DNA of 64,000 nucleotides from an uncultured Acidobacteriaceae bacterium (lineage in GTDB: Bacteria > Acidobacteriota > Terriglobia > Terriglobales > Acidobacteriaceae), in the NCBI GenBank assembly GCA_903842065.1, contig CAIMKZ010000074.1, forward strand, positions 62,001-126,000, written 5' to 3'. Below, piece after piece: positions 13,756 to 61,801 of the stretch. How positions within the stretch are numbered: the first letter of the stretch is position 1; each line of letters opens with the position of its first letter. The notes below the pieces were generated by a model. The model was given only the letters and a program-made list of their open reading frames with translations, was not told where the DNA came from and ran no database searches. Position numbers and translations under genes: made by a program.

Positions 13756-13762
13756 AATTTTC

Positions 13763-13949
13763 AGCTCCTAGCTATTAACTTTTAGCTGTTAGCTCCTTGC
13801 TAGCTCGCTGGCGCAGCGGCGATTGAGAAAATCATTCACACTTCTCTCCGCCTGCTAACTCCTGCGCTCTCTCAAACAACACCAGCTGTTTTTCGTGGCC
13901 TCAACACTTGATCGGGCACAAATGAGCTAACAGCTAATAGCTAGCAGCT
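13763..13949. repeat. Heptamer-bounded spacer between flgK and flgL (AGCTNNT type)
   Basis: The left arm is an array of 7-bp units, AGCTNNT, at 13763-13804 (AGCTCCT, AGCTATT, AACTTTT, AGCTGTT, AGCTCCT and a degenerate sixth). The right arm at 13922-13949 has four units in the opposite orientation, ANNAGCT. They include a perfect 14-bp inverted repeat (13782-13795 and 13924-13937) separated by 128 nt. The middle part has no ORF with a plausible product. The unit nearest flgL supplies the AGGAG ribosome-binding site. Confidence 0.8.
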
Positions 13950-13956
13950 GCATTTC

Positions 13957-18829: not shown

Positions 18830-19618
18830 TTAGCGCGTCATGTTGTTTACCTGCGAGTACATGTCATCGGCGGCTTTAATCACCTTCGAGTTCGACTCAT
18901 ACGCCCGCTGCGCCAGAACCATCTGAACAAACTCGGTCACCACATCCACGTTCGAGTTTTCGAGATACCCCTGTTGCAGTGTGCCCAGTCCCTCGCTGCC
19001 TCCGGGATTGCCCAGCACCGCGTCGCCCGAACTCAGTGTCGAAGCCAGCAGGTTCGACCCCATGCTCGCCAGCCCCCCCGGATTGGGAAAGGTAGCCAGT
19101 TGCAGCTGCCCCAGCGGCGAGGGGTTCTGCTGCCCGGGCAGCGTCGCGTTCACCACCCCATACTGGGTGATCGTCACCGCCGTCGCATTCGGAGGAATCG
19201 TGATCGTCGGAATCAGCGGGTCGCCGTCCGTCGTCACGATGCTTCCCTGGCTGTTCAGGTGAAACTGCCCGGCCCGCGTGTAAGCTATGGTTCCGTCGGG
19301 CCGCTGCACCTGGAAAAACCCCTGGCCCTCAATCGCCACATCGAGCGGGTTGTTGGTCTGGTTCAGCTCGCCCTGCATCGAGATGATCTCGGTGGCCGCC
19401 GAGCGCGTGCCCAGGCCGATCTGCAACCCGGCCGAGACCGTCGACTGGCTCTGCGCGGCGCCCGGCGTCACAAGATTCTGGTAGATCATGTCCTGAAACT
19501 GAAGCCGCATCTGCCGGAAGCCGGTCGTAGACGCATTGGCCAGATTGTTGGCGATCGTGTCCAGATTCAACTGCTCGGCGCTCATCCCGCTGGCCGCTGT
19601 GTACAAAGCTCGAATCAT
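18830..19618 (-). CDS. flgG: Flagellar distal rod protein FlgG
   Basis: A 262-residue protein that is nearly canonical throughout: MIRALYTAASGMSAEQLNLDTIANNLANASTTGFR at the start, NPLDVAIEGQGFFQVQRPDGTIAYTRAGQF in the middle and LGTLQQGYLENSNVDVVTEFVQMVLAQRAYESNSKVIKAADDM at the end. Forms the distal rod. ATG at 19618 with GGAGGTGCACCC directly before. A 232-bp spacer bounded by AGTCCCT heptamers precedes it. Confidence 0.97.
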   Translation of the reverse strand: MIRALYTAASGMSAEQLNLDTIANNLANASTTGFRQMRLQFQDMIYQNLVTPGAAQSQSTVSAGLQIGLGTRSAATEIISMQGELNQTNNPLDVAIEGQGFFQVQRPDGTIAYTRAGQFHLNSQGSIVTTDGDPLIPTITIPPNATAVTITQYGVVNATLPGQQNPSPLGQLQLATFPNPGGLASMGSNLLASTLSSGDAVLGNPGGSEGLGTLQQGYLENSNVDVVTEFVQMVLAQRAYESNSKVIKAADDMYSQVNNMTR

Positions 19619-19636
19619 GGGTGCACCTCCAGTGCA

Positions 19637-19846
19637 CAGGGACTAGGGACTAGGGCCGGTATATTGCCCGTCGAGACTTCTATTGACTCGCTTTGAAAAC
19701 AACTCATACTTTCTCCGTTCACCGCATACGTGCTCACTTCCCGTAGCCCGATTCATTCGTTTTCAAGCCGGAACATCCTGCATTTCTCTTAGCTTCCTTT
19801 TCCCATCTCCATCCGTCACTCCTAGTCCCTCAGTCCCTAGTCCCTG
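19637..19846. repeat. Heptamer-bounded spacer between flgF and flgG (AGTCCCT type)
   Basis: The left arm is AGGGACT-AGGGACT-AGGGCCG (19638-19658). The right arm has AGTCCCT at 19824-19830, 19832-19838 and 19839-19845. A perfect 15-bp inverted repeat links them (19637-19651 with 19832-19846; 180 nt apart). The middle contains no recognisable gene. Confidence 0.8.
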
Positions 19847-19850
19847 CCTC

Positions 19851-20588
19851 TTACACCTTGCTCAACTCCTCGGCTGCAAACTTGTTCATCTCGGTGTGAA
19901 AGACCGTCAGGGCCTTCTGCATCATCTCGGCCTGGCGCTGCATCAGCACCAGATCGAGCGTGCCGCGGATTACGTCCTGGTTGGCCCCTTCGAGAGCGCC
20001 CTGCTCCACCACGGCATCCTTCGCCGCCACCGGCGTCGCTCCCGCCGGAGCCACGTAGCGGTTCGTGCCCTCGGCCAAGAGCTCTGTGTTCGCTGGAAAT
20101 GTAAAGAGACCCACCGAACCGGCCAGTCCGCCGTCAACTGAGATCGCCCCGTCGCCCCGGATCGAGACCTCGCCCGGAGGAACCGCAACCGGCTTGCCGG
20201 CAGGAGACAAAACCGCCTCGCCCGTCCGCGTCACCAGATGCCCGGTGGACTCGCGATGGAAGCTGCCGTCCCGCGTGTAGCGGATGCCGTTCGATGTCTC
20301 GACCGCGAAGTATGCCTGGCCTTCGATGGCCAGATCGAGTGGATTGCCTGTTCTCTGGATCTCGCCCTGAGCCTGGCTGAGGCTGGTGCCGCCCACTACG
20401 CCATAGTCGTTCACGGCGCGGCCCATCTGCGATCCGGCCGAGCCCTCGCCGAGCAGCACCGCCCGAAAGTATGGGCGCTCGGCCCGGTAGCCCGCCGTCT
20501 GCGTGTTGGCCAGATTGGCCGCGGCGGCGTCGAGCGCGTCGGAGCGCGCTACCAGACCCGCCATAGCCGCGTAGTATCCGCTGTCCAT
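19851..20588 (-). CDS. flgF: Flagellar proximal rod protein FlgF
   Basis: A 245-residue member of the FlgE/F/G family. N-terminus MDSGYYAAMAGLVARSDALDAAAANLANTQTAGYRAE, then NPLDLAIEGQAYFAVETSNGIRYTRDGSFHRES, and a C-terminal helix ending LVLMQRQAEMMQKALTVFHTEMNKFAAEEL. It is more divergent than the neighbouring FlgG, which is typical of FlgF. ATG at 20588 with AGGGG about 8 nt before. Confidence 0.88.
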   Translation of the reverse strand: MDSGYYAAMAGLVARSDALDAAAANLANTQTAGYRAERPYFRAVLLGEGSAGSQMGRAVNDYGVVGGTSLSQAQGEIQRTGNPLDLAIEGQAYFAVETSNGIRYTRDGSFHRESTGHLVTRTGEAVLSPAGKPVAVPPGEVSIRGDGAISVDGGLAGSVGLFTFPANTELLAEGTNRYVAPAGATPVAAKDAVVEQGALEGANQDVIRGTLDLVLMQRQAEMMQKALTVFHTEMNKFAAEELSKV

Positions 20589-57729: not shown

Positions 57730-57772
57730 TGTACTTCTCCTTCAGGATCGCGCTCAGTCTCTGACCACTGAC

Positions 57773-57799
57773 AACTGTTCCCTTAGTCCCTCAGTCCCT
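57773..57799. repeat. Heptamer array between yebC and the PagL-like gene
   Basis: AACTGTTCCCTTAGTCCCT (57773-57791) is identical, in reverse complement, to part of the flhA-flhB spacer arm (27633-27651). TAGTCCCTCAGTCCCT (57784-57799) is identical to part of the flgF-flgG spacer (19823-19838). Only one arm is evident at this site; the yebC terminator follows at once. Confidence 0.75.
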
Positions 57800-57801
57800 G
57801 A

Positions 57802-57838
57802 CAAGAAGGACCGCCCAAACCGGGCGGCCCTTCTTGTA
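57802..57838 (-). terminator. Terminator of yebC
   Basis: ACAAGAAGG-x-CCGCCC pairs with GGGCGG-xx-CTTCTTGT (57802-57838), a long stem with a short AAACC loop, 18 bases beyond the yebC stop on the minus strand. Confidence 0.8.
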
Positions 57839-57855
57839 GGAAGTATCGCCCGGCA

Positions 57856-61501: not shown

Positions 61502-61581
61502 CCAAGGTCGGCCGGGTCCAGATTCACTCGTGACCCACTTCTCAACCAACCACATCTAAACCAACCTAAGGAACTGGGTGG

Positions 61582-61606
61582 CCCAGGTCTCGATTCGAGA
61601 CCTGGG
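61582..61606. repeat. Dispersed palindrome, copy 5
   Basis: A perfect 11-bp stem CCCAGGTCTCG (61582-61592) and CGAGACCTGGG (61596-61606) with ATT loop, in the context CTGGGTGG...GAGATCAACCC. It is the most regular copy in the window. Confidence 0.8.
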
Positions 61607-61656
61607 AGAGATCAACCCTCAACCAACCACTTTTGCACCATCCCCAAAACTGGGTG

Positions 61657-61683
61657 CCCCAGGTCTCGATCCAGAGACCCGGG
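61657..61683. repeat. Dispersed palindrome, copy 6
   Basis: CCCCAGGTCTC (61657-61667) with GAGACCCGGG (61674-61683), in the context CTGGGTG...GAAACACCACCC. It lies 75 bp after copy 5 in tandem orientation. The sequences between the copies also repeat (AACCAACCAC). Confidence 0.75.
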
Positions 61684-61801
61684 AAACACCACCCCTAATT
61701 AAATCCCTGCCATCCTGAGCAAAGGCCACCCGCCCCCCAACCCCATCATGTGAAAACCCCATACGCAAAATGGGAAATTTTTCGGTATTATTAGATATAG
61801 T

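Follow-up and report, generated by a model that had tools for sequence, protein, structure and literature searches.

Polarised heptamer arrays at gene edges in an Acidobacteriaceae genome and in its flgF-flgG spacer

Heptamer repeats between bacterial genes have been described in a few lineages, each time as an oddity of a single sequence that was explained through that sequence, be it by quadruplexes, stop codons or a specific binding protein. Rehm et al. 2015 (PMC4692102) reported intergenic GGGAATC heptamers in Xanthomonas and GGGGA(C/T)T heptamers in Nostoc, for which quadruplexes were proposed and no function was found. The G-rich strand of these repeats is sense after stop codons and antisense before start codons, within 50 bp, each Xanthomonas genome holds 70 to 75 inverted pairs, and the repeats are rare between divergent genes (PMC4692102). 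MacGregor 2015 (PMC4679880) described direct repeats of TAACTGA in marine Beggiatoaceae as well as some Cyanobacteria and Bacteroidetes. These lie just upstream of starts in one polarity, with a reversed set right after a stop; the unit is single, inverted pairs are rare, and many of the start codons have no Shine-Dalgarno site (PMC4679880). Filamentous cyanobacteria have degenerate 7-bp tandem repeats (STRR), some of which form hairpins between co-transcribed genes; a role of these hairpins in transcript stability or translational coupling was proposed (PMC2670836).

The arrays described here come from an Acidobacteriaceae genome and very probably represent the kind of gene-edge heptamer array published for Xanthomonas, Nostoc and Beggiatoaceae. 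They resemble the repeats of Rehm et al. in heptamer period, intergenic site, strand rule, inverted pairs and scarcity in divergent gaps. Those repeats, however, comprise one G-rich unit per genome, whereas here there are several unit families, most arrays lack quadruplex potential, and the unit changes between species at one locus. With the TAACTGA repeats they share a start-directed polarity, and the units AACTGAC and AACTGAT found before starts here are close to TAACTGA. That unit is nevertheless absent at the flgF-flgG locus, where the units are AGGGACT/AGTCCCT, and the Shine-Dalgarno site stays outside the array here, unlike at many TAACTGA-bearing starts. STRR are likewise degenerate 7-bp tandem repeats, known from cyanobacteria rather than Acidobacteriaceae, and as far as the accessible part of the source goes, one STRR unit (ttgtcagttgtcagttgtca) equals the CAGTTGT unit of one relative studied here (L104), while a polarity rule and family matching of ends are not described there. 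REP/REPIN elements and MITEs are also intergenic, inverted and multi-copy; unlike them, the present arrays have no conserved palindrome or interior and no apparent dependence on a Y1 (RAYT) transposase.

The gene-edge rule has thus been published before, for the GGGAATC heptamers of Xanthomonas, the GGGGAYT heptamers of Nostoc and the TAACTGA repeats of Beggiatoaceae, without proven function. What is new is its occurrence in Acidobacteriota, the presence of several families under one rule in one genome, and the inability of most arrays to form G-quadruplexes. Rehm et al. (PMC4692102) make no mention of Acidobacteriota, and the literature that we searched, with incomplete coverage, yielded no report of such arrays in this phylum.

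Layout of the flgF-flgG spacer

The sequence analysed, here called the window, is a stretch of 64,000 nucleotides (C74:62001-126000) from a 4.09-Mb draft genome of the Acidobacteriaceae, which relatives of its FlgG place close to Terracidiphilus and Occallatibacter. On the minus strand, flgF (19851-20588; Pfam LlgE_F_G_D1 and Flg_bb_rod) lies upstream of flgG (18830-19618; Pfam Flg_bb_rod, LlgE_F_G_D1 and Flg_bbr_C), and the spacer at 19619-19850 separates the flgF stop codon from the flgG start codon. As read from the plus strand, AGGGACT units (CAGGGACTAGGGACTAGGG) occupy 19637-19655 and AGTCCCT units (CCTAGTCCCTCAGTCCCTAGTCCCTG) occupy 19821-19846. In mRNA sense (minus strand), the stop-side array at 19821-19846, CAGGGACTAGGGACTGAGGGACTAGG, was seen in the sequence and by a tandem repeat finder, and starts 4 nt past the flgF stop. 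The start-side array at 19637-19655, CCCTAGTCCCTAGTCCCTG, was seen in the same two ways and as an exact lag-7 run, and ends 18 nt ahead of the flgG start. Along the mRNA, the order is flgF stop TAA, GAGG, stop-side array, 165 nt, start-side array, Shine-Dalgarno region and flgG ATG.

An earlier note on this DNA had described a perfect 15-bp inverted repeat of AGTCCCT and AGGGACT heptamers whose arms lie 180 nt apart. Direct reading found this to be exact (arms 19637-19651 and 19832-19846), with one unit step in the right arm of 8 bp instead of 7. With a loop of at most 300, the window contains three perfect inverted repeats that are 15 bp or longer: the flgF-flgG pair and two tight hairpins. 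When the window was shuffled 20 times by mononucleotides, a single such repeat arose overall. Taken alone, the flgF-flgG pair is only moderately unlikely by chance; it stands far above chance because a genome-wide class of such arrays exists.

The middle of the spacer (19656-19820) is locus-specific, with no alignable counterpart in other flgF-flgG spacers. A sequence scan of this middle found neither a promoter-like site on the sense strand nor a terminator-like site, a search of 19500-19900 found no intrinsic terminator (a short GC-rich stem with a T run after it), and Rfam gave no match at the spacer. Beside the start-side array, at 19621-19637, the Shine-Dalgarno core of flgG is contained in the loop of a hairpin whose 6-bp stem is perfect (sense GTGCAC-TGGAG-GTGCAC), and a comparable hairpin, GCGCAC-CGGAG-GTGCGC, precedes flgG in the relative L132.

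Several further arrays lie in the window. AGCT-type arrays mark both edges of the flgL-flgK spacer (13756-13956), on the plus strand at the left (13762-13803) and the minus strand at the right (13920-13953). Another such pair, 29690-29725 (plus) and 29745-29789 (minus), occupies the spacer downstream of the gene at 29789-30058. A single AGTCCCT-type array (27790-27811, minus) sits past the stop of flhB (27819-28919, minus; FlhB by Pfam), and two AGTCCCT units (57785-57799, minus) lie in the spacer 57730-57855. In the flgK-flgL spacer of a congener (L203), a run of loose units of about 20 nt (ATTCAGGCTGCCGGCGGAGTC and similar) takes the place of heptamers. Separately, a 77-bp tandem repeat at 61541-61684 of the window contains a palindromic motif around CCTGGGGCACC, which is an abundant intergenic repeat (about 42 per Mb in the source genome, 0 to 5 in three congeners).

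Unit families, polarity and pairing of ends

Array statistics cover 1.26 of the 4.09 Mb of the source genome and, for each of three congeners, another 0.4 Mb. Genes were called with a home-made caller; its errors, such as a gene start missed at C76:40839-41436, blur the edge distances. In the 1.26 Mb, 32 exact period-7 arrays fell in 229 kb of noncoding and 27 in 1031 kb of coding DNA, compared with 1 in shuffled noncoding DNA, and periods 14 and 21 were likewise raised. The earlier note had reasoned that a spacer function would be unlikely if arrays were equally common inside genes. They are not: approximate lag-7 arrays occurred in 64 noncoding versus 17 coding regions, coding DNA being 4.5 times larger (27.9 versus 1.6 per 100 kb, about 17-fold), and the loci of 80 relatives held 62 noncoding versus 7 coding arrays. 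Noncoding and coding lag-7 arrays numbered 29 and 10 in AB60 and 10 and 4 in T. gabretensis; the third congener, G151, had few arrays (3 and 2). Apart from multiples of 3 or 7, most other lags stayed near 2 per 100 kb of noncoding DNA, with 6.5 for lag 8, the slipped form. A count over the 4.09-Mb genome gave 27 occurrences of AGTCCCTAGTCCCT versus 5 of its reversed control. The excess of period 7 over coding DNA, shuffled DNA and other lags rejects chance as the origin of the class.

The units group into families that keep their core constant while the last positions are free to vary, namely YAGCT-NY, YAGGG-NN, YAGT-NNN and others. Arrays consist of about 3 to 6 units at gene edges, mostly within 7 nt after stops and within 20 nt before starts in about half of cases; the gap left before starts gives room for the Shine-Dalgarno site. 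A minor heptamer family outside the YAG anchor, CGTGNNN (CGTGGTTCGTGGTTCGTG), was seen in the source genome at C100:6184-6254, C77:96527-96580 and C100:75126-75786.

At both stop and start edges, YAGNNNN reads away from the gene (85 versus 8 overall). Outward exceeds inward by 20 to 0 beside convergent stops and by 26 to 4 on the start side of co-directional gaps, and the ratio is 33/4 for AGCT, 13/3 for AGGG, 11/3 for AGT and 59/8 in 29 other species. The earlier note's proposal that the AGTCCCT and AGCT spacers share one design with differing units is therefore borne out, with outward polarity in each family. Its description of that design as an inversion needs an addition: inverted pairs are present, but a fixed polarity relative to genes belongs to the design as well. 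Stop codons in all three frames were found in 53/117 arrays read toward the gene and 44/117 read the other way, a difference that does not discriminate, and we rejected them as the cause of the polarity.

Inverted pairs occur within single gaps, and 28 spacers carry at least two arrays. In the source genome, both arms of 12 pairs could be assigned to a family, and in all 12 the family was the same, including pairs in convergent and divergent gaps; in AB60, one partner of a few pairs could not be classified. Neighbouring array-bearing spacers along the chromosome differed in family 26 times and agreed 23 times. At the variable bases, arms matched their own partner no better (0.698) than arms of other spacers of the same family (0.703), which rejects exact pairing held by selection. 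The middles between paired arrays had no copies elsewhere in the sampled sequence. Arrays occurred in 10/242 divergent, 65/748 co-directional and 21/183 convergent gaps, and 36/57 co-directional array-bearing gaps of up to 400 nt had only one clear end. One convergent gap of the source genome (C73:14510-14639, in L068) carries CAGTNNT arrays at both stops, with a terminator-like hairpin and T run between them.

The flgF-flgG spacer in relatives and its predicted folding

We compared 81 flgF-flgG spacers, from 80 relatives and the source genome. The gap is either 11 to 52 nt, essentially the Shine-Dalgarno site alone, or longer and mostly of the array design with other units, among them CAGTGAA/TTCACTG (L098), CAGGGGT/ACCCCTG (L100, L126), CAGTTGT/ACAACTG (L104) and CAGTTCA/TGAACTG (L106). 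Of the sense YAGn4YAG pairs in the 34 gaps above 55 nt, 66 lay in the stop half against 3 in the start half, and of the antisense pairs 5 against 54, so that 120 were oriented as the rule predicts and 8 were not. On a tree of FlgF plus FlgG, the state switches 10 to 12 times between short gaps and long array-bearing gaps. The middles fail to align even among near relatives, the exceptions being the array-rich pair L115/L128, short matches and spacers outside the class. The flgF stop codon (L088-L167) is TGA in 13/21 array-bearing spacers and 14/60 others; this link is not significant, with only 5 independent contrasts on well-supported branches.

Unrelated units under the same rule, and a unit swap at one orthologous spacer, separate the rule from the sequence. 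Because several units follow one rule, explanations tied to one repeat sequence cannot suffice. The variety of units amounts to a set of natural swap experiments, and any explanation must fit AGCT, AGGG and AGT alike.

In the minus-strand flgF-flgG spacer, a long stem is predicted between the two arrays, closing the entire middle. Own arms formed on average 0.78 of possible pairs versus 0.53 for arms swapped between species, own arms being better in 14/15 species, and the minimum free energy was below that of shuffles in 15/15 species with both arms. One possibility is that the arrays are kept for this stem, because pairing in the polycistronic mRNA folds out the spacer or blocks nucleases; in one version, folding keeps the flgF stop near the flgG Shine-Dalgarno site. 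The better pairing of own arms despite differing units and the low folding energies favor such a role, which recalls the proposal made for STRR hairpins between hupS and hupL of cyanobacteria (PMC2670836). However, pairs also occur in convergent and divergent gaps, including the convergent gap with a terminator-like hairpin between its arms; pairing does not need a fixed polarity; and the variable bases are no better matched within one spacer. A loop-out that shortens the path from stop to start gains no support, as shuffles fold to an equal path length and the measure does not discriminate. We consider a selected RNA stem possible but doubtful.

We read arm pairing as a possibly useful consequence rather than the proven reason for the arrays, since the match is at the family level only and pairs occur in convergent and divergent gaps, where the arms share no transcript. 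The spacer function raised in the earlier note was not demonstrated: single arrays are common, pairs are not confined to co-directional gaps, and variable bases match only by family. Its ranking of periodicity and inversion above the exact bases holds in part. Judged from these comparisons, period 7, inversion and polarity are more conserved than the bases, with families sharing the design and units changing at an orthologous spacer; but bases do count at the family level, because arms of one spacer share a family and pair better than arms of other species.

Origin of the arrays and their spread across genomes

The reading that we tentatively prefer, at somewhat less than an even chance, is that the arrays belong to gap-filling repeat DNA with polarised inverted ends, which arises at the DNA level and, once transcribed, makes the spacer fold into a stem. 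In this class, degenerate YAGNNNN heptamers form the left end of a spacer and their reverse complement the right end, a locus-specific middle lies between them, and the whole fills the gap from stop codon to Shine-Dalgarno site. Both ends would arise together by polar copying of DNA in a 7-nt register rather than by independent slippage, unit families would turn over quickly, and copies would persist only where no gene or promoter is broken. Where the flanking genes are co-directional, as at flgF-flgG, the ends are predicted to pair in the transcript as a long intercistronic stem, which here would enclose the entire middle from the flgF stop to the flgG Shine-Dalgarno site; this would make the insert tolerable and may stabilise the message.

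Intergenic enrichment, polarity, the matched families of all assigned pairs, unique middles, repeated state changes and the scarcity of divergent arrays favor gap-filling DNA. An arm match at the family level only is also what would be expected if a single event produced both ends and exact pairing was not maintained afterwards. Against it stand the absence of Ku, the array-rich genomes in which no Y1 transposase was found and the many co-directional gaps with only one clear end, and if the DNA were a mobile insert, copies with related middles would be expected; none were seen in the sample. Gene-relative polarity across several phyla could equally reflect a constraint at the transcript level.

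A distinctly less likely explanation is that the arrays are sites for an RNA- or DNA-binding protein, a polar reader of cores at heptamer spacing that might act in translation or messenger decay, for instance; such a protein was suggested for the TAACTGA repeats of Beggiatoaceae (MacGregor 2015, PMC4679880). A five-base core that stays constant while the last two positions vary within each family, the fixed polarity, and sites that adjoin start and stop codons would suit such a reader. Unrelated cores (AGCT, AGGG, AGT) obeying one rule in one genome would not, one specific reader does not allow units to change at an orthologous locus, and Acidobacteriaceae genomes with zero array matches exist. 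It is very unlikely that replication slippage acted independently at each site with no element or function involved: in many bacteria no long simple repeats are commoner than heptamers, slippage has been proposed (cited in PMC4692102 and PMC4679880), and 8-nt steps are present in the arrays, but a random process predicts neither polarity nor family match of gap ends, and the overall polarity count argues strongly against it.

The G-quadruplex explanation offered for the repeats of Xanthomonas and Nostoc is highly improbable here. G3 tracts recur every 7 nt in the AGGG family and the location rule equals that of Rehm et al., but (G3+N1-7)4 is possible in only 18/117 oriented arrays, all within part of the AGGG family, the AGCT and AGT families show the same polarity, and the flgF-flgG arrays carry two to three G3 tracts per arm; quadruplexes were rejected as a general cause on the first two of these counts. 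There is hardly any chance that the spacers are ordinary miniature transposons (MITE or REPIN) with inverted ends that consist of heptamer arrays by accident: inverted ends, patchy presence and avoidance of genes and promoters fit, as does a correlation of Y1 transposase number with array number (rho 0.45), but copies in the sampled sequence have no interior in common, which rejects a classical MITE, and genomes with 111, 181 and 240 array matches had no detected Y1 transposase.

A Y1 (RAYT) transposase is present in the source genome, but those array-rich genomes suggest that the arrays do not require one. Filling of ends in nonhomologous end joining was rejected as well, as Ku was not found in the source genome despite its many arrays. 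Beyond the gap-filling reading for Acidobacteriaceae, bacteria of several phyla might have in common a process, independent of the unit, by which gene gaps are marked or filled with outward-reading heptamer arrays, through a polymerase or end-copying activity in a 7-nt register, with the unit interchangeable and the polarity and matching of ends either made or selected; we regard this as unlikely.

Five-unit (YAGNNNN) arrays were found in 139/160 Acidobacteriaceae genomes, with 0 to 388 matches per genome. Single genera span much of this range (0, 32, 54 and 273 matches in g27; 4, 81, 165 and 388 in g33), and such variation within one family, sometimes one genus, makes a search for the responsible genes feasible. 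Across the phylum, 115/199 genomes had five-unit arrays, with up to 2744 matches, and the distant Acidobacteriota G234, G245, G214 and G249 each carry hundreds to 2744. Unit families differ by clade, since it is the reversed control pattern that abounds in several of them. The unit CAGCACT of G214 shows reversed polarity (L289 and L307, on rough gene calls), which indicates that YAG itself is not universal.
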